Origin: Motilibacter aurantiacus
GTDB lineage: Bacteria; Actinomycetota; Actinomycetes; Motilibacterales; Motilibacteraceae
NCBI RefSeq assembly: GCF_011250645.1
Contig: NZ_JAANNO010000021.1
Span: 1-38,753 of the forward strand
DNA: 38,753 nucleotides
Reading direction: 5' to 3'
Shown: positions 3,199-15,068 of the stretch, one piece after another
How positions within the stretch are numbered: the stretch's first letter is position 1
How the letters are laid out: every line of letters starts with the position of its first letter
The notes under the pieces: generated by a model
What the model was told of the DNA's origin: nothing
What the model saw: only the letters and a program-made list of their open reading frames with translations
Databases searched by the model: none
Made by a program: the position numbers and the translations under genes

Positions 3199-6100
3199 AT
3201 GAAGCGAAGTCGGCTTCGTCTGCTCTCCGTGCCCCTGGCGGTCGCCCTTCCGGCGGCAGCCCTGGTGGCCGCGGTGGCGCCCGTGGCTTCGGCCGCGGAC
3301 CCGGACCCGTTGGACCCGAACAACTACGAGAAGATCACGATCACCAAGGACACCGGCGAGCCGATCGACATGGCCGTCATGTCCGACTCGCGCATCCTGC
3401 ACACCGCGCGCAACGGTGATGTGCGGCTGACGGACCCGTCCACCGGCGTGACGCGGATCATCAACAAGATCGACGTCTACGGCAACTCCGAGGACGGCCT
3501 GCAGACGGTCGCCCTGGACCCCAACTTCGCCACGAACAAGTGGGTCTACCTCTACTACGCACCGCGCGTGATGAGCGGGACGGCGCAGAACGGCGCGCCG
3601 TACCCGACGACGACGCCGGCGGGGAGCGCTCCCAACGACCGTCCCGCGGGCGCGGACAACTCGTACTGGAACCAGTGGCTCGGCTACAACCAGCTGTCGC
3701 GGTTCAAGTGGAACGACGCCACCCAGGCCCTCGACCTGACGACCGAGCAGGTCATCATCAAGGTCGAGCAGCAGCGCGGGCAGTGCTGCCACGTCGCCGG
3801 CGACATCGACTGGGACGCCGCGGGCAACCTCTACCTCTCCACCGGTGACAACACCCCCGCCAGCGCTCCGGGCGCCAGCGGCATGGCGCCGAACATCTCG
3901 ACCCCGACGAGCAACCCGGGTCACGACGACCGGCGCGGCGCGGGCAACACCAACGACCTGCGCGGCAAGATCCTGCGCATCAAGGTCGCCGAGGACGGCA
4001 GCTACACCGTCCCCGCCGGCAACCTCTTCGCGCCCGGCACCGCCAGGACCCGTCCCGAGATCTTCGTGATGGGCCTGCGCAACCCGTTCCGCATGGAGGT
4101 CGACGAGAAGACCAACACGGTCTCCTGGGGCGACTACGGGCCCGACTCGGGCACCGCCATCGCGAACCGTGGCCCGATGGGCTACGTCGAGTGGCAGATC
4201 ACCTCGCTGGACACGCCGCTCAACGGCGGCTGGCCGTACTGCCACGGCCCGAACGCGAACTACAACGAGTACAACTACGCGACGAACACCCCCGGTGAGT
4301 TCTTCGACTGCGCCGCCGGCGCCAAGAACAACTCGCCGCTGAACACCGGCCTCCCGACGGTGCCGCCGGCCACCGCGCCGCAGCTGTGGTACGGCGACCG
4401 CGACACCGACCAGCCGTGGCCCGAGCTCACCGCCTTCCGTACGCCGGACTCCTCCGGCCAGGCGCCGATGGGCGGCCCGATCTACCACTACGACGCGGCC
4501 AACCCGTCGCAGACGAAGTTCCCGGCCCACTGGGACAACAAGGCCTTCATGGCCGAGTTCTCCCAGGACTACGTCGCCGCGCTGACGGTCGACTACGCCA
4601 GCCCGGCGAAGACCGTCACCAAGCTGGAGAACTTCTTCCCGAACGGCAAGGTCACCTCCACCGCGTCCCCGCGCTGGGACAACGTGATGGACATGGAGTT
4701 CGGCCCCGACGGCTCGCTCTACGTCCTCGAGTACGGCGACGGCTTCTTCCGCCAGAACCCCGACGCCGGCCTCTACCGCGTCGACTGGGCGCCGGGCAAC
4801 AAGACGCCGCAGGCCCAGTTCACCGCCACGCCGAGCTCCAGCAGCTCCGCTCCGCTGACGGTCGCCTTCGACGCGGGCCGCTCGCTCGACCCGGAGGGCG
4901 CCGCCCTCACCTACGAGTGGGACTTCAACAACGACGGCGTCTTCGACGCCACCGGCGTGACCGCGTCGTACACGTACAACACCCTCGGCGCGTACACCGC
5001 CCGACTCCGGGTGGCCGACGCGTCGGGCAAGACCGCCGTCACCTCGCGCCGCGTCTCGGTCGGCAACCAGGCCCCGACGATCTCGGTCTCGACGCCGAAC
5101 GGCGGGTTCTTCAACTGGGGCAAGGCCGTCCCGTGGTCGGTCACGACGAACGACGCCGAAGAGGGCACCAACACGGTGTGCTCGCGCGTGTCGGTCATCT
5201 ACGGCCTCGGCCACAACACGCACGCCCACCCGCTGACCACGGCGACCGGCTGCGCCGGCGCCTGGGCGACCCCGGCCGACGCTCCCGAGCACGGCCCGAC
5301 GGAGAACATCTACGGCGTCATGCTCTTCACCTACACCGACGCGGGCGCCAACGGCGTCCCGGCGGCGTCCGGTGAGGCCGAGGTCATCCTCAACGACAAG
5401 AACCAGCAGGCCGAGTGGTTCGACGCGCAGTCCGGCGTCCAGGTCACGGCGGACGCCAACGCGGCCGGCTTCAACAAGGTCACCTCCTTCGACGCCGGTG
5501 ACTTCATCGGCTGGGACCCGGTGAACTTCTCCGGCATCACCGGCGCGCAGGTCAAGGGCTCCGGCCAGGGCACGCTCGCGTTCCGCTGGGGCTCGGTGGA
5601 CGCGGCTCCGTTCGCGACCGCCGCGTTCGGGGCGGGTGAGGGCTGGAAGACGGTCAACCTCGCGCTCACCGGCACCTCGCTGCCGACCGGCTCGGGCAAG
5701 CTCTTCGTCACCTCGACCGGCGGCGTGGACGTCGACCAGATCGAGTTCCTCGGCAACGGCCTCAACGACGTCACGGCCCCGACGGTCACGGCGACCACCT
5801 CGCCCGCGGCCAACGGCGCCAACGGCTGGTGGACCTCCGGCAACGTCACGGTCACCATCGCGGCCACCGACAACGGCGCCGTCGCGTCGCGTCAGTACCG
5901 CACCGTCACCGCCGCCAACCAGTGCACGGCTGCCGGCGCCACGTGGACCAACGTCCCGAACAACGGCAACGTCGTCATCAGCGCCGAGGGCACGACCTTC
6001 GTCTGCTACCGGGCGACCGACAACGGCGGCAACGTCTCCGCCGTCGGCAACGTCCAGGTCCGCATCGACCGCACCGCGCCGACGGGCACGCTGCCCGGCG

Positions 6101-6579
6101 TCGTCAACGGCTCGATCGCGAACTCGGCCTACCTGGTGCCCAGCGCCACCGACACCGGCGGCTCCGGCTTCCTCAGCGTCTCCGGCGTCACCGTGGACGG
6201 CAAGAGCTACGGCGCGGCCCAGCCGATCGACCTGTCGGCCCTGTCCCTCGGTGCTCACACGATCGTGTTCACCGTCAAGGACGTGGCCGGCAACACCAAG
6301 GTCGAGACGCTAGCGTTCACGACCACGGTCTCCTTCGACAGCATCGACGCCCTGATCGGGCGCTACGCGGCTGCTAAGACGATCTCGGCGAGCGCGGCGG
6401 CCAGCCTGCGCGACCGGCTCGAGGCCGCGGAGACCCGCGCCGAGCGTGGCCAGCTCTCCTCGGCGATCAGCTACCTCGAGCAGTTCATCAAGCGGGCCGA
6501 CAGCCAGGTCAAGCAGAAGGCTGCGCACGACGTCCTCGTCCGCGACGCCCGGGCGCTCATCGCGTCCCTCGAGGGCTGA
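3199..6579 (+). CDS. Secreted multidomain PQQ-type sugar dehydrogenase (GSDH) with PKD, CBM6-like, Ig-like and FIMAH-like domains
   Basis: The 1126-residue product starts at ATG 3199, preceded by GAGGAG, and has a Sec signal peptide (residues 1-33, ending APVASA). A glucose/sorbosone dehydrogenase beta-propeller spans about 45-530. It contains QCCHVAGDIDW, in which His198 aligns with the general base of soluble PQQ glucose dehydrogenase, and GLRNPFRMEVD. A PKD domain follows (about 535-623, with YEWDFNNDGVFD), then a CBM6-like module (about 735-856), Ig-like repeats (about 858-1044, with YRATDNGGNVS and VKDVAGNTK) and a C-terminal helical module resembling FIMAH (about 1045-1126). The family oxidises aldose sugars to lactones with PQQ and passes electrons to the respiratory chain or dyes. 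No pqq genes are in the window. The C-terminal module is shared with the next two proteins. Domain order is seen; substrate is unknown. Confidence 0.88.
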   Translation: MKRSRLRLLSVPLAVALPAAALVAAVAPVASAADPDPLDPNNYEKITITKDTGEPIDMAVMSDSRILHTARNGDVRLTDPSTGVTRIINKIDVYGNSEDGLQTVALDPNFATNKWVYLYYAPRVMSGTAQNGAPYPTTTPAGSAPNDRPAGADNSYWNQWLGYNQLSRFKWNDATQALDLTTEQVIIKVEQQRGQCCHVAGDIDWDAAGNLYLSTGDNTPASAPGASGMAPNISTPTSNPGHDDRRGAGNTNDLRGKILRIKVAEDGSYTVPAGNLFAPGTARTRPEIFVMGLRNPFRMEVDEKTNTVSWGDYGPDSGTAIANRGPMGYVEWQITSLDTPLNGGWPYCHGPNANYNEYNYATNTPGEFFDCAAGAKNNSPLNTGLPTVPPATAPQLWYGDRDTDQPWPELTAFRTPDSSGQAPMGGPIYHYDAANPSQTKFPAHWDNKAFMAEFSQDYVAALTVDYASPAKTVTKLENFFPNGKVTSTASPRWDNVMDMEFGPDGSLYVLEYGDGFFRQNPDAGLYRVDWAPGNKTPQAQFTATPSSSSSAPLTVAFDAGRSLDPEGAALTYEWDFNNDGVFDATGVTASYTYNTLGAYTARLRVADASGKTAVTSRRVSVGNQAPTISVSTPNGGFFNWGKAVPWSVTTNDAEEGTNTVCSRVSVIYGLGHNTHAHPLTTATGCAGAWATPADAPEHGPTENIYGVMLFTYTDAGANGVPAASGEAEVILNDKNQQAEWFDAQSGVQVTADANAAGFNKVTSFDAGDFIGWDPVNFSGITGAQVKGSGQGTLAFRWGSVDAAPFATAAFGAGEGWKTVNLALTGTSLPTGSGKLFVTSTGGVDVDQIEFLGNGLNDVTAPTVTATTSPAANGANGWWTSGNVTVTIAATDNGAVASRQYRTVTAANQCTAAGATWTNVPNNGNVVISAEGTTFVCYRATDNGGNVSAVGNVQVRIDRTAPTGTLPGVVNGSIANSAYLVPSATDTGGSGFLSVSGVTVDGKSYGAAQPIDLSALSLGAHTIVFTVKDVAGNTKVETLAFTTTVSFDSIDALIGRYAAAKTISASAAASLRDRLEAAETRAERGQLSSAISYLEQFIKRADSQVKQKAAHDVLVRDARALIASLEG

Positions 6580-6637
6580 CCTCGGCCCACTGCTCCACCT
6601 GCACGTCCTCCAGAACCACCAGCACCACCGCATTCCC

Positions 6638-6672
6638 GGCCGGCCCGACGGCTCCACGCCGTCGGGCCGGCC
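6638..6672 (+). terminator. 14-bp perfect hairpin between the dehydrogenase and the first TIM-barrel gene
   Basis: GGCCGGCCCGACGG (6638-6651) pairs perfectly with 6659-6672 around a 7-nt loop. No T-tract follows, so it may be a weak terminator, an attenuator or an mRNA-stabilising stem that sets different expression levels in one transcript. Confidence 0.65.
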
Positions 6673-6728
6673 CCCCGGTTCGCCACCCTCCCGGACCCGC
6701 TCGGCCCGGTGGAATTAGGAGAAACGCA

Positions 6729-8042
6729 ATGAGCAAGCTCAACCGCCGGAACTTCCTCGGCCTGGCCGGGGCTTCCGCCATCGGCGTCGCGGCCACCCCG
6801 CTCCTCGGCGCGGGCACGGCCAACGCCGCCATGAGCGTCTCGAAGCTCAACACGCCCTCGCAGAGCATCGGCCTGCAGCTGTACAGCGTCCGCAACCTCA
6901 TCAGCGGCACCGGCGCGGTCGGCTTCGCCGCCACCTTCGAGGAGCTGGCCCGCATCGGCTTCAACGAGGTCGAGTTCGCCGGTTACACCCAGGGCAACGT
7001 CGGCGCGATCACCACCGCGCAGATCAAGGGCCTGCTGGACGGCAACGGCCTCAAGGCCATCGGCTCGCACATCAGCTGGAACAACCTCACCAACCCCTCG
7101 CTCAACACGCTCGAGTTCGAGCGGGCCGTCGAGCTCGGCATGCCGTTCATCGGCACCGCCAACGACTTCCCCGGCACCACGGTGGCGGCCATCCAGGCCG
7201 GGGCCGCGCTGTTCGCCGCGGCTCAGGTGAAGGCCGCGACCTACGGGCTGCGCATCTACCAGCACAACCACGCCAACGAGTTCATGTTCACCGACGACGC
7301 CCCGAGCCGCCGCCGCTACGAAATCTTCATCGAGGCCGTGCAGGCCGCGGGCGGCTGGGCTGCGGGCGCGTTCCTCGAGATGGACATCCTGTGGGCGTAC
7401 GGCGGCGCCCGCAAGTACGCGGTCCCCGGCGGCAGCAACAACCGCGGCGTCCCGCTGCCCGGCGGGGCGTTCGGCTTCGACCCGGCCGACTGGGTCGCCG
7501 CCAACCCCGAGCGCTACGTCCTGTTCCACACCAAGGACGGCCTGCCCAACACGGACCCCGCGCAGGGCAACTCCTACACGCCCGCCGAGTTCGGCGCCGG
7601 CACGATCGACTTCCGCTCCTTCTTCAAGAAGGTCGGCGCGAAGACCGAGCACCACCCGCTGTGGGAGCACGACAACGCGCCCAGCACCCCGGCCGTCCTC
7701 GGTGGCGCCATGGGCGCCGCGGAGCGCAGCTTCGACGCGATGTTCGCCACCCGGACGCTCACGTGGCTCGACGAGCTCGCCGCCCTGGTCGCGCGCCTGG
7801 TCGCGGACGGCCGCGTCAAGGCCGCTGTCGGGGACGACCTGCTCGGCCGCGTGAACAACGCGATCAAGCGCTACGAGGGCGGGCACGAGGAGTCGGCGAT
7901 CGGCTACCTCGGCCAGTTCATCGCGAAGGTCAACAACCAGGTGAAGGGCGACGCCGACGCCAAGGCCGTCCTCATGGGCGACGCGCAGATCATCCTCGAC
8001 TGGCTGCAGCAGTCCGAGGACAAGGAGAACGGCGTCGTCTGA
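6729..8042 (+). CDS. TAT-exported sugar phosphate isomerase/epimerase-like TIM-barrel protein with FIMAH-like C-terminus
   Basis: The 437-residue protein starts at ATG 6729 with AGGAGA 7 nt upstream. Its N-terminus carries a twin-arginine signal (RRNFLGLAG, cleavage near ANA/AMS about residue 33). Residues about 46-335 form a xylose-isomerase-like TIM barrel (PF01261 type). Likely metal-ligand motifs are in the usual order: GSHISWNN, QHNHANEF, FLEMDILWAYGG and LFHTKDG. Residues about 343-437 form a helical module homologous to the C-terminus of the upstream dehydrogenase (GYLGQFIAKVNNQVKG). The family isomerises or epimerises sugars, and exported relatives may act on oxidised (keto) sugars. 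It is about 60-65% identical by eye to the product of 8308, a tandem duplicate. Transport in folded form fits a metal-bound enzyme. Exact reaction unknown. Confidence 0.87.
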   Translation: MSKLNRRNFLGLAGASAIGVAATPLLGAGTANAAMSVSKLNTPSQSIGLQLYSVRNLISGTGAVGFAATFEELARIGFNEVEFAGYTQGNVGAITTAQIKGLLDGNGLKAIGSHISWNNLTNPSLNTLEFERAVELGMPFIGTANDFPGTTVAAIQAGAALFAAAQVKAATYGLRIYQHNHANEFMFTDDAPSRRRYEIFIEAVQAAGGWAAGAFLEMDILWAYGGARKYAVPGGSNNRGVPLPGGAFGFDPADWVAANPERYVLFHTKDGLPNTDPAQGNSYTPAEFGAGTIDFRSFFKKVGAKTEHHPLWEHDNAPSTPAVLGGAMGAAERSFDAMFATRTLTWLDELAALVARLVADGRVKAAVGDDLLGRVNNAIKRYEGGHEESAIGYLGQFIAKVNNQVKGDADAKAVLMGDAQIILDWLQQSEDKENGVV

Positions 8043-8080
8043 CGCCTGCCCGCCGCTCGCCGGCGGGACGTTCCTCCTGA

Positions 8081-8111
8081 CGGGCCCCGGCGCGCACCGC
8101 GCCGGGGCCCG
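8081..8111 (+). terminator. GC-rich hairpin terminator after the first TIM-barrel gene
   Basis: A perfect 14-bp stem (8081-8094 with 8098-8111) closes on a 3-nt loop, followed by GTTC-containing sequence. A smaller 7-bp stem lies just before it (8049-8055 with 8061-8067). Together they separate the two TIM-barrel genes. Confidence 0.7.
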
Positions 8112-8307
8112 TTCGCGTTCCCCCGGCCTCGTCGGCCGCGTGGGCGGTTGCCGACGACGGGATCGTTTTGGGCCGCTGCTACCGGCGGCTCCGGTGGGTT
8201 CATGGTGCCTAGTGGGCGAAAGAGCTCGTGGCGAAGCCTTGTCGTGCGTCACGGGGAGGAGAACTCTGGCCCGGTCAGTGCTTGTCCAGTGGCAAAGGAG
8301 CTATGGG

Positions 8308-9600
8308 ATGGGTCAGAACATCAGTCGGCGCGGCTTCCTGGGCACCGCCGGCGGGGCGGCGATCGGCGTCGCGGGGCTGTCGATGGCAGGGCCGCTCGCC
8401 GGGCGCGCCGGGGCGGCGATGGCCGTGGCCGCCAAGGACACCCCGTCGCCGAGCCTCGGGTTGCAGCTGTTCAGCGTGCGCAACGCGATCAGCTCGTTGG
8501 GCTTCGCAGTCGTGTTCGAGACGCTGGCGCAGCAGGGCTACAAGGAGGTGGAGTTCGCGGGCTACACCTCGCCCGCGTCCCCCGGCATCACGATCCCGCA
8601 GCTGCGCCAGTTGCTGGACGACAACGGGCTCAAGGCCATCGGCTCCCACATCAGCCTCAACAACCTGCTCAACGCCGGCGTCCGCGAGCAGCAGTACGAG
8701 ATCGCGGTGCAGCTGGGCATGCCCTACATCGGCACCGCCAACGACATCCCCGGGCAGACGGTCGCCGAGATCCAGGCCGGCGCCGACCGCTTCAACGCCG
8801 CCGCTGACGTGGCCGCGACGTACGGTCTGCGGATCTACCAGCACAACCACGCCAACGAGTTCGCCTTCACCGCGGACCAGCCGAACGTGCGGCGCTACAC
8901 GCCGTTCATCAACCGCATCGACTGGAGCAGGAACGTCTTCCTCGAGATGGACATCCTCTGGGCGTACGGCGGTGCGCGCAAGTACGCGCAGCCCGGGGGC
9001 ACGAACGGCCTGCCGCTGCCGAACGGAGCGTTCGGCTTCGACCCCGCGAACTGGGTCGCCGCCAACCCCGAGCGCTACCGGCTGTTCCACGCCAAGGACG
9101 GGACGCCGAACGCCGACCCCGCGAGCGGCAACTCGTTCACACCGAGCGAGTTCGGCGCCGGGACGATCGACTTTCGGTCGTTCTTCGCCAAGGTCGGTGC
9201 CCGCTACGAGAACCACCCGCTGTGGGAGCAGGACAACGCCCCCAACACACCGGCGGAGCTGGGCGGGGTGTTCGGCGCCTCCCGGCGCAGCTACCTGGGG
9301 ATGTTCGAGACCCGCACGCTGACCTGGCTGGACGAGATGCACGCACTGGTCGGTCGGATGGTGCTCAACCGACAGCTCACCGCGAGCGTGGGCGCGGGGC
9401 TGCAGGACCGCCTCGACCGGGCCATCAGCCGCTACCAGGACGGCCACGAGGAGTCCGCGATGGGCTACCTCGGCCAGTTCGTCGCCAAGGTCGGCAACCA
9501 GGTGCGCGGCTTCTCCGCGTCCAAGGCCATGCTGCTCAGCAACGCCGACATGATCATGGGCTGGCTGCAGGAGTCCGAGGACCGGGAGCTTGGGGGCTAG
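8308..9600 (+). CDS. Second TAT-exported TIM-barrel isomerase/epimerase-like protein with FIMAH-like C-terminus
   Basis: The 430-residue protein starts at ATG 8308, with AAAGGAG at 8294-8300; the open frame extends further upstream but without signal-like sequence. A twin-arginine signal is clear (SRRGFLGTAGG). The TIM barrel (about 40-330) repeats the motifs of its neighbour: GSHISLNN, QHNHANEF, FLEMDILWAYGG and LFHAKDG. The C-terminal helical module (about 337-430) contains GYLGQFVAKVGNQVRG. It is a tandem paralog of the product of 6729 with conserved putative active-site residues, so both are probably active but may differ in substrate. It has its own 265-bp upstream gap and a terminator between the two genes, so separate transcription is likely. 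Reaction unknown. Confidence 0.87.
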   Translation: MGQNISRRGFLGTAGGAAIGVAGLSMAGPLAGRAGAAMAVAAKDTPSPSLGLQLFSVRNAISSLGFAVVFETLAQQGYKEVEFAGYTSPASPGITIPQLRQLLDDNGLKAIGSHISLNNLLNAGVREQQYEIAVQLGMPYIGTANDIPGQTVAEIQAGADRFNAAADVAATYGLRIYQHNHANEFAFTADQPNVRRYTPFINRIDWSRNVFLEMDILWAYGGARKYAQPGGTNGLPLPNGAFGFDPANWVAANPERYRLFHAKDGTPNADPASGNSFTPSEFGAGTIDFRSFFAKVGARYENHPLWEQDNAPNTPAELGGVFGASRRSYLGMFETRTLTWLDEMHALVGRMVLNRQLTASVGAGLQDRLDRAISRYQDGHEESAMGYLGQFVAKVGNQVRGFSASKAMLLSNADMIMGWLQESEDRELGG

Positions 9601-11885: not shown

Positions 11886-14800
11886 ATGACGACGAAGCAT
11901 CCCCGCACGTCGACCGCCGCGGTAGCCGCCGCAGGCCTGGCCGCGTCGCTGCTGGCCGCGTACGCCGCCCCTGCGTCGGCGGCGACCGGCACCGCCCCCG
12001 GAGCCCCCGGGGCGGACGCCACCTGGACGACCGGCGCCAAGACCGGCGTCGGCACGTCCACCACCCTCGCGTCGAAGGTCTGGTACACGCTCGCCGACGG
12101 CGTGCTGACCGAGGTCTACTACCCGCGCGTCGACGTCGCGGACTCGCGCTCGCTGGAGCTGATCGTCACCGACGGCCGCACCTTCGCCGAGAGCGAGGCC
12201 ACGGCGACCGACCACGTGACCGGGCTGGCCGACGACCGCGGCCTGGTCTACCGCCAGGTCAACACGGACAAGGACGGCCGCTACGCGATCACCAAGACCT
12301 ACGTGACCGACCCGGCGCGCTCGACGGTGATGGTCAACGTGGAGTTCCGGTCGCTGGACGGCGGCCGCTACCAGGTGTACGCCCGCTTCGATCCCGCGCT
12401 CGCCAACTCCGGCCGCCACGACCGGGCCTGGACCTCCGGCGGAGCCCTGCTCGCCGAGGACTCCGGCGGTGCCGACGAGGTGGCCAGCGCGCTCGTCGCG
12501 GACAAGCCGTTCCTCGCCACGTCCAACGGCTACGTCGGCACCTCGAGCGACGGCTGGGAGGACCTTCGCGCTGACTTCGACCTCGACGACGCCTACGGCG
12601 AGGCCACCGACGGCAACGTCGTCCAGGTCGCCCGCCTGCAGCTCGGCGGGACGGCGCGCACGTCCACGGCGGCCCTCGCCCTCGGGTTCGGGGCGACGTC
12701 CGGCGAGGCCCTCGCCACCGCCCGGGCCAGCCAGGCGACCGGCTTCTGGGACATCCGCCGGGCGTACTCCGACGGCTGGCACGACTACCTGGGCTCGCTG
12801 GCGAAGGCGCCGAAGAGCGTCCGCCGGGACCACGAGCTCTACACGCAGTACCGCGTGGCTGCCATGCAGCTCAAGGCGCACGAGGACAAGACGTACCGGG
12901 GCGCCAACATCGCGTCCCTCACGGTCCCGTGGGGCGAGGCCCAGAACGCGAACGAGGCCGGGGTCGGCGGCTACCACCTGGTGTGGGCGCGCGACCTCTA
13001 CCAGGTGGCGACGGCGCAGCTCGCCGCCGGCGACGTCGCAGCGGCGAACCGCTCCCTGGACTACCTGTTCGACGTCCAGCAGCGGCCCGACGGGTCGTTC
13101 CCCCAGAACACCCTGCTCGACGGGACGCCGTACTGGCAGAGCCTGCAGCTCGACGAGGTGGCCTTCCCGATCGTGCTGGCCTGGCAGCTCGGGCGGACCG
13201 ATGCCGACTCGTGGGGACATGTGAAGCGGTCTGCCGACTTCCTCGTCGGCCGGGGCCCGTCCACGCCGCAGGAGCGGTGGGAGGAGGAGGGCGGCTGGTC
13301 CCCGAGCACCATCGCCGCCGAGATCGCCGGGCTGGTCGCCGCCGCGGACATCGCCCGGGCCAACGGGGACGGGACGTCGGCCGTCCTCTACACCGCCGTG
13401 GCCGACGAGTGGCAGCGCAAGGTGGAGTCGTGGACCTACACGACCACCGGGCCGCTGGGTGACGGCCGCTACTACGAGCGCATCGACGACAACGGCAACC
13501 CCGACGACGGCGCCGCCCTCTCGATCAACAACGGGGGCGGGACCTGGGACGAGCGCGAGGTCGTCGACGCCGGGTTCCTCGAGCTGGTCCGCCTCGGGGT
13601 CAAGCCGTGGAACGACCCCTACGTCACCTCGTCCCTGCCCGAGGTCGACTCCACGATCCGCGTCCAGACCCCGAACGGCGCGATGTGGTACCGCTACAAC
13701 CACGACGGCTACGGCGAGAAGGCCGACGGCTCGCCCTACACCGGTGAGGGCGTCGGGCGGCTGTGGCCCCTGCTGTCCGGTGAGCGCGGCGAGTACGAGC
13801 TGGCCGCGGGGCGGCCCGCCGACTCCCACCTGCGCACGATGGCGGCCGCCGCGAACGAGGGCTACCTGATCCCCGAGCAGGTGTGGGACCGGCCTGAGGC
13901 GACCGCGTACGGCCACCGGTTCGGGGAGGGCACCGGCTCCGCCACGCCGCTCGCGTGGTCGATGGCGCAGTACGTCCGGCTCGCGCTCTCGATCGACGCC
14001 GGCCGGCCCGTCGAGACGCCGTCGGTCGTCGCGGACCGGTACGCCCGCGGGGCGGTGCCGGCCGGCCCCACGCTGTCGCTGACCTCGCCCGTCGAGAGCT
14101 CCGTCACGGACCGTCCGACGGTGACCGTCACCGGGACCACGGACGCGACATCGGTCTTCGTCAACATCGGCACGACCACCACCCCGGTGCCGGTCGTCGA
14201 CGGCTCGTTCTCCTACGCGGCCCCGGTCGTCCGCGGCGCGAACGCCATCACGGTGGTGGCCGTGGCGGCGAACGGCGGGACCTCGATCGTCACCCGCAAC
14301 GTCACGTCGAACAACTTCGGCACCCCGCTGGGGGGAGTCGACGACCCGAGCGGTGACGACAACGGGCCGGGGACGTACGTCTATCCCGCGGACGCCGCCT
14401 ACAACGCCGGGGCGTTCGACATCACCCGGTTCGCCGTCTTCGACGACGGCACGAGCTACAACTTCGTCACCACCATCCGGGGCGACATCCGCAATCCCTG
14501 GGGCGGCAACTCGATCTCGGTGCAGCGGCTGAACGTCTACGTCCGGACGGGCACGGGGGCGGGGGCGGTGCCGGCCCTGACCGGCACCAACGCCCGGCTC
14601 GCCGCACCATACGACGTCGTCGTCACGGGCGAGGGCTTCTCGACGCCGACGGTGCAGAACGCCGCCGGCGGCGTGGTGGCCACCGGCTCGCTGCAGGCGC
14701 TGCCGGTGACGCGACAGATCGCCGTGTCGATCCCGAAGAGCGCGTTCGGCGCAGCCGGCCTGGCCTCGGCGTCGTACGCCGTCGCGATCATGAGCCGGGC

Positions 14801-15068
14801 GGACGCGGGGGAGGGGGCGGGCAACATCCGCCCCGTCTACGCGCTGGACTACTGGCAGTCGACGGCCGGGACGGGCATGTCGTGGATCCACGACCACCGG
14901 TTCGGAGGTGGGGCCGGCGTGTGGACGGACGCCGGCGCCGCCAGGGACACCGACACGCGTGACCCGAACGTGCTCGACATCCTCACGCCGCCGGGGGTGA
15001 CGCAGGCCTCGGCGCTGTCGTGGTCGGACGGGGTGCCGGCGACCCTGCCGTACGTCACGCTGGGCTGA
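11886..15068 (+). CDS. Secreted GH15 glucodextranase/glucoamylase-type glycosidase
   Basis: The 1060-residue protein begins at ATG 11886 with a signal peptide ending APASAA near residue 33. Residues about 40-330 form the N-terminal beta-sandwich typical of bacterial GH15 enzymes (WTTGAKTGVGTS, KVWYTLADGVLTEVYYPR). The (alpha/alpha)6 catalytic barrel spans about 330-720. By alignment with glucoamylases, Glu466 in RWEEEGGW is the likely acid and Glu681 in FGEGTGSATPLAWS the likely base. An Ig-like domain (about 725-810) and a C-terminal glucodextranase-type binding module (about 815-1060) follow, as in Arthrobacter glucodextranase. It would release glucose from dextran or starch-like alpha-glucans outside the cell. 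It converges on a GH16 gene. The start has only a weak ribosome site (GAGGTCGAG). Family is secure; alpha-1,6 versus alpha-1,4 preference is inferred from the domain layout. Confidence 0.9.
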   Translation: MTTKHPRTSTAAVAAAGLAASLLAAYAAPASAATGTAPGAPGADATWTTGAKTGVGTSTTLASKVWYTLADGVLTEVYYPRVDVADSRSLELIVTDGRTFAESEATATDHVTGLADDRGLVYRQVNTDKDGRYAITKTYVTDPARSTVMVNVEFRSLDGGRYQVYARFDPALANSGRHDRAWTSGGALLAEDSGGADEVASALVADKPFLATSNGYVGTSSDGWEDLRADFDLDDAYGEATDGNVVQVARLQLGGTARTSTAALALGFGATSGEALATARASQATGFWDIRRAYSDGWHDYLGSLAKAPKSVRRDHELYTQYRVAAMQLKAHEDKTYRGANIASLTVPWGEAQNANEAGVGGYHLVWARDLYQVATAQLAAGDVAAANRSLDYLFDVQQRPDGSFPQNTLLDGTPYWQSLQLDEVAFPIVLAWQLGRTDADSWGHVKRSADFLVGRGPSTPQERWEEEGGWSPSTIAAEIAGLVAAADIARANGDGTSAVLYTAVADEWQRKVESWTYTTTGPLGDGRYYERIDDNGNPDDGAALSINNGGGTWDEREVVDAGFLELVRLGVKPWNDPYVTSSLPEVDSTIRVQTPNGAMWYRYNHDGYGEKADGSPYTGEGVGRLWPLLSGERGEYELAAGRPADSHLRTMAAAANEGYLIPEQVWDRPEATAYGHRFGEGTGSATPLAWSMAQYVRLALSIDAGRPVETPSVVADRYARGAVPAGPTLSLTSPVESSVTDRPTVTVTGTTDATSVFVNIGTTTTPVPVVDGSFSYAAPVVRGANAITVVAVAANGGTSIVTRNVTSNNFGTPLGGVDDPSGDDNGPGTYVYPADAAYNAGAFDITRFAVFDDGTSYNFVTTIRGDIRNPWGGNSISVQRLNVYVRTGTGAGAVPALTGTNARLAAPYDVVVTGEGFSTPTVQNAAGGVVATGSLQALPVTRQIAVSIPKSAFGAAGLASASYAVAIMSRADAGEGAGNIRPVYALDYWQSTAGTGMSWIHDHRFGGGAGVWTDAGAARDTDTRDPNVLDILTPPGVTQASALSWSDGVPATLPYVTLG

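Follow-up and report, generated by a model that had tools for sequence, protein, structure and literature searches.

FIMAH tails on three adjacent exported proteins of Motilibacter aurantiacus: a genome-wide module and possible retention tag

The FIMAH domain (Pfam PF22888, curated cut-off 24.8 bits) is an already known family with a solved fold. One member is the four-helix bundle of a GH92 mannosidase from Neobacillus novalis (7NSN, residues 1321-1411); the 7NSN study states the function of this bundle as unknown and reports that its deletion reduced binding to insoluble yeast wall by ~50% and left ~80% of the activity (PMC10167667). Our literature searches found no paper that names FIMAH as a protein domain (the word occurred only in titles on uropathogenic E. 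coli), nor any paper on the accession PF22888. Here we describe a stretch of 38,753 nucleotides from Motilibacter aurantiacus (contig NZ_JAANNO010000021.1, hereafter the window) in which three adjacent genes, denoted A, B and C (Table 1), encode a sugar dehydrogenase and two TIM-barrel proteins that all end in a FIMAH module. As in the family at large, the Motilibacter modules are four-helix bundles placed C-terminally on modular exported enzymes. They differ from it in forming a GSE/NQVKGD subtype, in reaching 40-50 copies per genome and in being appended to a barrel family that lacks the module in 45 other actinobacterial loci.

An earlier note on this DNA had claimed that A, B and C, although unrelated in their catalytic domains and export routes, share one C-terminal module resembling FIMAH. 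The tail stretches it quoted are present in the three translations, and its main point is borne out by a Pfam scan, in which PF22888 covers the last ~80 residues of A (E 1.2e-13, 51.8 bits), B (E 1.1e-10, 42.3 bits) and C (E 3.3e-5, 24.8 bits, exactly at the cut-off). The same modules scored 57.7, 46.4 and 28.5 bits in the genome search described below, and the aligned tails have 22 invariant columns, with 35% identity between A and B and 31% between A and C. The catalytic domains are indeed unrelated between A and the other two proteins, but B and C are paralogues (65% identity), so that the informative sharing of tails is that of A with B/C only. The proposed export routes agree with the N-termini as judged by eye, with a Sec-type signal peptide on A and twin-arginine (TAT) signals on B and C, but the TAT profile matches are sub-threshold (Pfam TAT_signal on B, 13.6 bits versus a cut-off of 22.7; NCBIfam TAT on C, 10.9 versus 16.7).

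An AlphaFold2 model of the B tail, built with 11 sequences (predicted local distance difference test, pLDDT, 91.4), has the four helices of the family fold. Its best structural match was the 7NSN bundle (Foldseek probability 1.00, template modelling score 0.78, E 0.032), and VIA gave Z 14.2 with a root-mean-square deviation of 1.7 over 91 residues. Helical bundles can reach Z 13-14 in VIA through arrangement alone, and the match agrees with a profile of 31 modules that finds the 7NSN segment by sequence (E 8.6e-8); profile and fold thus place both in one family. The aligned 7NSN segment is without the NQVKGD and GSE residues of the Motilibacter modules. Other look-alikes (pectin methylesterase and invertase inhibitors, S23-family proteins) fell within the range of helical-bundle arrangement and were discarded. 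In the model of full-length B (pLDDT 91.5, predicted template modelling score 0.90) the last helix of the barrel continues into FIMAH helix 1.

The three tails belong to a much larger set. A search of the whole M. aurantiacus genome (4.59 Mb, 62 contigs; G000) with PF22888 gave 47 matches at E<=1, of which 40, on 39 reading frames, exceed the cut-off; one tag on different enzymes is thus not the special feature of this locus that the earlier note had taken it for. Pfam scans covered the three window frames and 40 of the 42 others, the two left out being a fragment at a contig edge (L061) and a sub-cut-off frame (L034:3568-6012). The tagged partners comprise multidomain proteins with glucose/sorbosone dehydrogenase (GSDH) and ThuA domains, 3-keto-disaccharide hydrolases and AP_endonuc_2 barrels; M14, M28 and S15 peptidases, amidases, an asparaginase, a sulfatase, a metallophosphatase and an alpha/beta hydrolase; and GH43, GH92, GH127, a multicopper oxidase, an LVIVD protein and a CBM2 protein without an enzyme (L050). 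One or more of GSDH, ThuA, 3-keto-disaccharide hydrolase and barrel are present in 14 of the 39 frames. Counted by family, the module sits on 3/3 PF06439 frames, on 7/15 GSDH frames (17 matches) and on 5/17 PF01261 frames. Partners as unrelated as these fit a tag for a place better than a binder for a particular substrate.

The tagged proteins look exported. All 35 frames with an intact start (of 39) have an export signal by eye; the remaining four are cut by contig ends (L061, L064) or look broken (L041, L044). The latter two, L041:5371-7400 (rhamnosidase-like) and L044:5022-6200, are tagged genes whose frames may reflect assembly error or decay. The only intracellular-looking frame, a patatin (L033), has a chance-level match (E 0.05, 16.3 bits). 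Within the PF01261 family (n = 17) the five tagged proteins are all exported, while one of the 12 untagged ones (L217) shows an export signal by eye. This protein (G000 C7:63745-64377), a TAT-type barrel without the tag, offers a natural comparison for B and C. An estimate of the tagged fraction of the secretome was dropped, as a home-made signal-peptide rule, applied to 20 stretches outside the FIMAH loci examined, picked out 61 of 345 genes, some of them plainly cytosolic. The modules are mostly C-terminal, ending within 20 residues of the stop in 31 of 40 copies and within 35 in 33.

Some tagged proteins carry no recognised enzyme at all. Small proteins consisting of CBM2 and FIMAH only, exported by eye, occur in M. 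aurantiacus (L050) and in two further genomes (two in G003, one in G004); these four (L050, L148, L154, L156) come from three genomes and two genera of the family, and one frame of a second Motilibacter genome (G001, probably M. deserti) also carries CBM2 and FIMAH. They fit a bridging or adhesion role, whether the bound partner is a polymer or a receptor.

High copy number is a property of the genus. At E<=1e-3 there are 42 FIMAH matches in M. aurantiacus and 52 in G001, compared with 4, 10 and 4 in three other genomes of the family, and 10 of 60 genomes, our own included, have any match at this threshold. In two wider surveys at most 13 candidates per genome were scored, so that the counts are lower bounds. 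An even sample of the phylum gave at least 17 of 396 genomes with FIMAH at E<=1e-4 (own genome included), none but our own with more than three copies on these lower-bound counts; in the class survey it was at least 51 of 393 (own genome and G001 included), with at most 10 copies listed outside the genus, again as lower-bound counts. The nearest loci among the best 80 of 182 related places lie on three Motilibacter deserti contigs (55-77% identity); G001 has frames whose lengths (1202/522 and 1221/486 aa) equal those on these contigs, hence its probable assignment to M. deserti. For 21 of the 45 own frames, 20 of which exceed the cut-off, a search of tagged frames from 20 G001 stretches and the three M. 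deserti loci found a tagged counterpart at least 78% identical outside FIMAH; this search is blind to untagged orthologues.

Outside the genus the partners are mostly GSDH/ThuA proteins. Thirteen of 23 FIMAH frames were scanned, the ten left out being mostly of a second subtype described below. GSDH or ThuA is present in 9/13 (in two together with a 3-keto-disaccharide hydrolase); the rest are CBM2-FIMAH proteins (3/13; L148, L154, L156) and an alpha/beta hydrolase (1/13; L146). One genome of another actinobacterial family (G044) has four FIMAH places within 28 kb (contig C168; L159, L160); the three that were scanned all carry GSDH, being GSDH or ThuA-GSDH-3-keto-hydrolase proteins. G446 and G501 list similarly spaced groups. 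From these partner domains the GSDH/ThuA group looks like an older home of FIMAH. Since FIMAH outside the genus is mostly on this group, the tag of A is probably old, and those of the barrels and of many other enzymes were probably gained in the Motilibacter line. The GSDH/ThuA bias and the clustering also point to some sharing of the tag by pathway outside the genus, which counts in favour of the earlier note.

That note had further suggested a docking or retention signal that assembles an extracellular complex from the products of one locus. We compared 48 actinobacterial loci, in which FIMAH occurs on 3 of 49 barrels, all from Motilibacter, the barrel being untagged in the other 45 loci. 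It occurs on 4 of 64 GSDH frames (two Motilibacter, one Streptomyces, one Actinacidiphila), a count from which divergent copies could escape because the FIMAH model was built from own-genome modules; the Streptomyces and Actinacidiphila tags were confirmed by Pfam. The untagged barrel proteins stop 1-15 residues past the barrel and, in the alignment, end where FIMAH begins. Nor do neighbouring modules clearly resemble each other more than distant ones. The A and B modules are 35.3% identical, B ranking 18th of 30 in likeness to A, against an all-pair mean of 34.5% (sd 9.2); other neighbouring pairs reach 32.9% (L046), 40.0% (L049) and 35.3% (L057), the pair at L062 lying outside the alignment. 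The B module is 72-76% identical to barrel modules elsewhere in the genome and the A module 91% identical to that of another GSDH protein, values on which a transfer of the tag between A and B/C, in either direction, was rejected. Judged by these identities, module similarity tracks enzyme family, not locus. Together with the untagged barrels of 45 loci this makes locus-specific docking unlikely, and a locus-specific docking code, with neighbouring-pair identities not clearly above the mean, was placed last among the explanations.

Within the genome, no other over-cut-off frame was seen directly next to 32 of the 39 tagged ones. There are four adjacent tagged pairs (A-B, B-C, L046 and L062, one member of the last scoring 24.4 bits as a whole protein, just under the cut-off) versus 0.37 expected (39 x 38 / 3960), and at least four pairs arose in about 0.06% of 20,000 shuffles. 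The shuffles drew on all genes, unmatched for export, the estimated total of 3960 being extrapolated from 400 kb in which 345 genes were called. If the tandem pair B-C and the L046 duplicate are set aside, two pairs remain, and at least two arose in 5.3% of the shuffles. The excess is therefore largely a tandem copy and a duplicated locus, and clustering alone is weak evidence. The suggestion of the earlier note thus stands in part: the tails hit a common profile, the proteins that bear them are exported and adjacent pairs are more frequent than expected, and a shared docking or retention role remains sensible for a module that goes with export, but a code specific to the locus is unlikely and the locus-wise sharing is mostly duplication.

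The alternative that A, B, C and other 3-keto-glycoside enzymes bind each other via their tails in an assembly specific to this locus or pathway would account for the three adjacent tagged genes, for a second tagged GSDH-barrel pair paralogous to A-B (L046:2969-7802, G000 C5), for the bias towards GSDH or ThuA outside the genus and its clustering in G044, and for a fusion. This single chain (L056:3932-8011, G000 C9) consists of GSDH, PKD, CBM6, PKD, FIMAH and a TIM barrel and so unites the functions of A and B. We nevertheless consider such an assembly very improbable: none of the four pathway domains was seen in 25 of the 39 tagged frames (24 scanned frames and the unscanned fragment L061), the A module is nearer to modules of unlinked loci than to that of B, and GSDH next to a barrel is a frequent arrangement (within 1 kb in 39/48 actinobacterial loci, many from Micromonospora and hence not independent), the barrel being tagged in the 3 Motilibacter loci only.

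Much of the module set is marked by a genus-specific signature. We aligned 112 modules: 45 from M. aurantiacus (two weak ones of 47 were dropped), 34 from G001 and M. deserti, 22 from the same family and 11 others. The motif NQ[VIL][KR] at the end of helix 3 occurs in 26/45, 18/34, 0/22 and 0/11 of these, respectively, that is in 44 of 79 genus modules versus 0 of 33 outside; the relaxed form [NS]Q[VIL][KR] is found in 2/33 outside the genus, and the A module carries a variant, SQVKQ. In the set chosen by the NQ motif alone, E52 is conserved in 98%, R38 in 91%, G50 in 95% and D82 in 91% of modules, compared with 3%, 24%, 70% and 33% at the same positions in the 33 non-genus modules. A second subtype (by eye STGRDLQ...KVSA; L055, L059, L063, L204, L147-L158) often occurs as tandem pairs. 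In our genome it sits on GH43-, GH92- and LamG-type proteins, and it is the commonest type in other genera of the family.

Unrelated exported partners, polar residues kept throughout the genus and the lack of diversification by locus together point to one common bound target. Tentatively, and at a little less than an even chance, we favour the view that FIMAH is a common retention or adhesion tag of exported Motilibacter enzymes. The compact, non-catalytic four-helix module would hold much of the secretome in place, as a general 'stay-here' tag, by binding one common ligand, which may be an envelope polymer or one of a plant or fungal wall matrix, with the outcome that some forty different exoenzymes would be active at the same surface. 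At the present locus, glycosides would be converted to their 3-keto form and then cleaved by elimination and hydration, close to the cell by virtue of the tag.

Several observations weigh against a common retention tag. Seven of the 38 scanned over-cut-off frames (L055:7476, L048, L040, L062:5668, L045, L037 and L034:6246) drop to 20.5-24.7 bits when scored as whole proteins, so that the 31/38 that stay at 24.8 bits or more are the stricter count. Nine of 40 modules lie more than 20 residues from the stop, and some are internal, between two ThuA domains (L052), between the GSDH part and the barrel (L056) or right after the signal peptide (L037). Tagging is incomplete: eight of the 15 GSDH frames, counted regardless of export, are untagged, and there are untagged exported proteins such as the barrel L217 and the glucodextranase encoded at 11886-15068 of the window. 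The signature modules do not group cleanly in the tree, where the best clade holds all 44 of them and 19 others, and about three subtypes, distinguished by eye, coexist and may have no common ligand. NQ-type modules are acidic (mean net charge -3.1 with flanks) and have 0.46 tryptophans each, which lends no support to the binding of polyanions or to a carbohydrate-binding surface of the classic type. Finally, in the 7NSN study (PMC10167667), the melting temperature of the deletion variants was ~10 degrees lower and removal of bundle and CBM32 together raised binding again; the effect of the bundle on binding may thus be indirect.

The lower melting temperature, and the extra lower bands given by the variant without the bundle (PMC10167667), would also be expected if FIMAH were a stabilising or protective C-terminal cap that has no partner, spread by domain shuffling and was kept for folding or protease resistance. 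The predicted run of the B barrel helix into FIMAH helix 1, a rigid fusion in the model, points the same way, as may the barrels of 45 other actinobacterial loci, which manage without the module. By itself, however, a cap predicts neither the genus-specific polar signature nor the tagging of CBM2-only proteins, and we regard it as improbable.

Alternatively, FIMAH may be a docking module that binds a protein receptor at the surface or another FIMAH, the docking site being formed by its genus-specific NQVKGD and GSE residues. Conservation of genus-specific polar residues on an otherwise divergent helical scaffold is what such a site would produce; the export of 35/35 intact frames and the mostly C-terminal position agree with it, and the CBM2-FIMAH proteins resemble adaptors. 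No receptor gene was found, however, the modules show no locus-wise co-divergence, and searches for known anchoring partners gave little: cohesin (PF00963) had 0 matches at E<=0.01 in five genomes of the family, and SLH (S-layer homology) had none at E<=0.1 in the two genus members. In these two (G000, G001) the LPXTG model, which is short and insensitive, gave sub-cut-off matches only, and each has four sortases. On these results a cellulosome was rejected, and an SLH or LPXTG system was set aside more tentatively, given the insensitive LPXTG model and the sortases. The likeness to dockerin-cohesin is at most that of a small module on many different exoenzymes; unlike that system, Motilibacter has a four-helix bundle and its family no cohesin in five genomes, and FIMAH is not a member. 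Docking is, in our view, possible but unlikely.

A more far-reaching proposal can be made. FIMAH with its own signature (GSE...NQVKGD) would be a secretome-wide, mostly C-terminal address tag, read by one dedicated receptor or envelope polymer, which we find rather doubtful. It would amount to a new system for displaying or assembling exoenzymes, with no relation to dockerins, LPXTG or SLH, that brings about forty enzymes to the cell surface; our expectation of this is similarly low. That the tag would have spread from the exported pathway of 3-keto-glycoside cleavage is an origin to which we likewise give little credence.

The catalytic parts of B and C have well-described relatives. The best fold match of the B barrel is the 3-keto-beta-glucopyranoside-1,2-lyase 8TCT (E 3.9e-13, TMt 0.74), and a profile of 35 barrels finds a chain of 8TCD (E 1.4e-29) and the O-glycoside beta-eliminase AtOGE (8BVK, E 2.2e-7). 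By profile and fold the barrels of B and C are thus homologous to the lyases BT1/AL1 (8TCT, 8TCR, 8TCD) and to AtOGE. The AtOGE paper (PMC10628242) names His132, Asp163, His189 and Glu233 as metal ligands, His134 as catalytic and Glu39, His66 and Glu161 as a second site. By motif mapping onto these residues, the ligands correspond to H179, D219, H267 and E313 in B (E313 just beyond the Pfam barrel stretch), the catalytic residue to H181, and the second site to E82, H114 and E217. All these counterparts recur in C, and across 34 aligned barrels, from which a partial one was excluded, they are 94-100% conserved. In contrast to BT1/AL1 and AtOGE, B and C start with TAT-type export signals and end in a FIMAH module. 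By PF01261, the barrel of B scores 29.3 bits, under the curated cut-off of 31.1, and that of C 53.1, over it. Gene A matches the GSDH profile PF07995 with 95.9 bits (cut-off 25) and is arranged as signal peptide, GSDH, PKD, CBM6, an Ig-like part and FIMAH. The frequent GSDH-barrel adjacency described above and the L056 fusion suggest that the three proteins probably work together in an exported 3-keto-glycoside route; no GSDH frame was found within 1 kb of the barrel in the 32 loci other than those 48. Its neighbours suggest that A, as a GSDH-family enzyme, may carry out the oxidation at C3.

The start of gene C is most likely the ATG at 8308, which has AAAGGAG upstream. Adjoining the three genes, the exported glucodextranase (11886-15068) comprises GH15, Glucodextran_N, Glucodextran_B and an 'SLH-like' C-terminal binding module, without FIMAH. 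By eye, a LysR-type regulator lies upstream of the window locus (1764-2789) as well as of the L046 pair (about 1457-2338).

Table 1. Features of the A-B-C locus (positions in the window).
Feature	Position	Strand	Evidence
Gene A, exported sugar dehydrogenase, 1126 aa	3199..6579	+	translation, Pfam
GSDH PF07995 of A, residues 54-319	3358..4155	+	Pfam E 3.8e-27
PKD of A, residues 534-616	4798..5046	+	PF18911 E 9e-15
CBM6 of A, residues 737-850	5407..5748	+	PF03422 E 5.1e-8
FIMAH of A, residues 1046-1122, variant motif SQVKQ	6334..6564	+	Pfam, genome search
Gene B, TAT-type exported TIM-barrel protein, 437 aa, C-terminal FIMAH	6729..8042	+	translation, Pfam
TIM barrel PF01261 of B, residues 70-303	6936..7637	+	E 8.8e-7
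FIMAH of B, residues 347-422, four-helix bundle, motif NNQVKGD	7767..7994	+	Pfam, genome search, model
Gene C, paralogue of B, 430 aa, TAT-type signal, C-terminal FIMAH	8308..9600	+	translation, Pfam
TIM barrel PF01261 of C, residues 71-299, metal-site residues as in B	8518..9204	+	E 4.7e-14
FIMAH of C, residues 341-415	9328..9552	+	Pfam, genome search

As far as our literature searches show, the copy number, the genus signature and the addition of FIMAH to an exported family of 3-keto-lyase type are new. A module on about forty unrelated exported enzymes of one genus is a natural experiment that makes a substrate-specific role unlikely. The pattern within the genus points to a shared location, names candidate residues and renders the question of FIMAH function testable. 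The locus itself suggests an exported version of the 3-keto-glycoside, non-hydrolytic breakdown of glycans, and, should the retention tag prove true, FIMAH would be a compact new module for the display of enzymes on Gram-positive cells.

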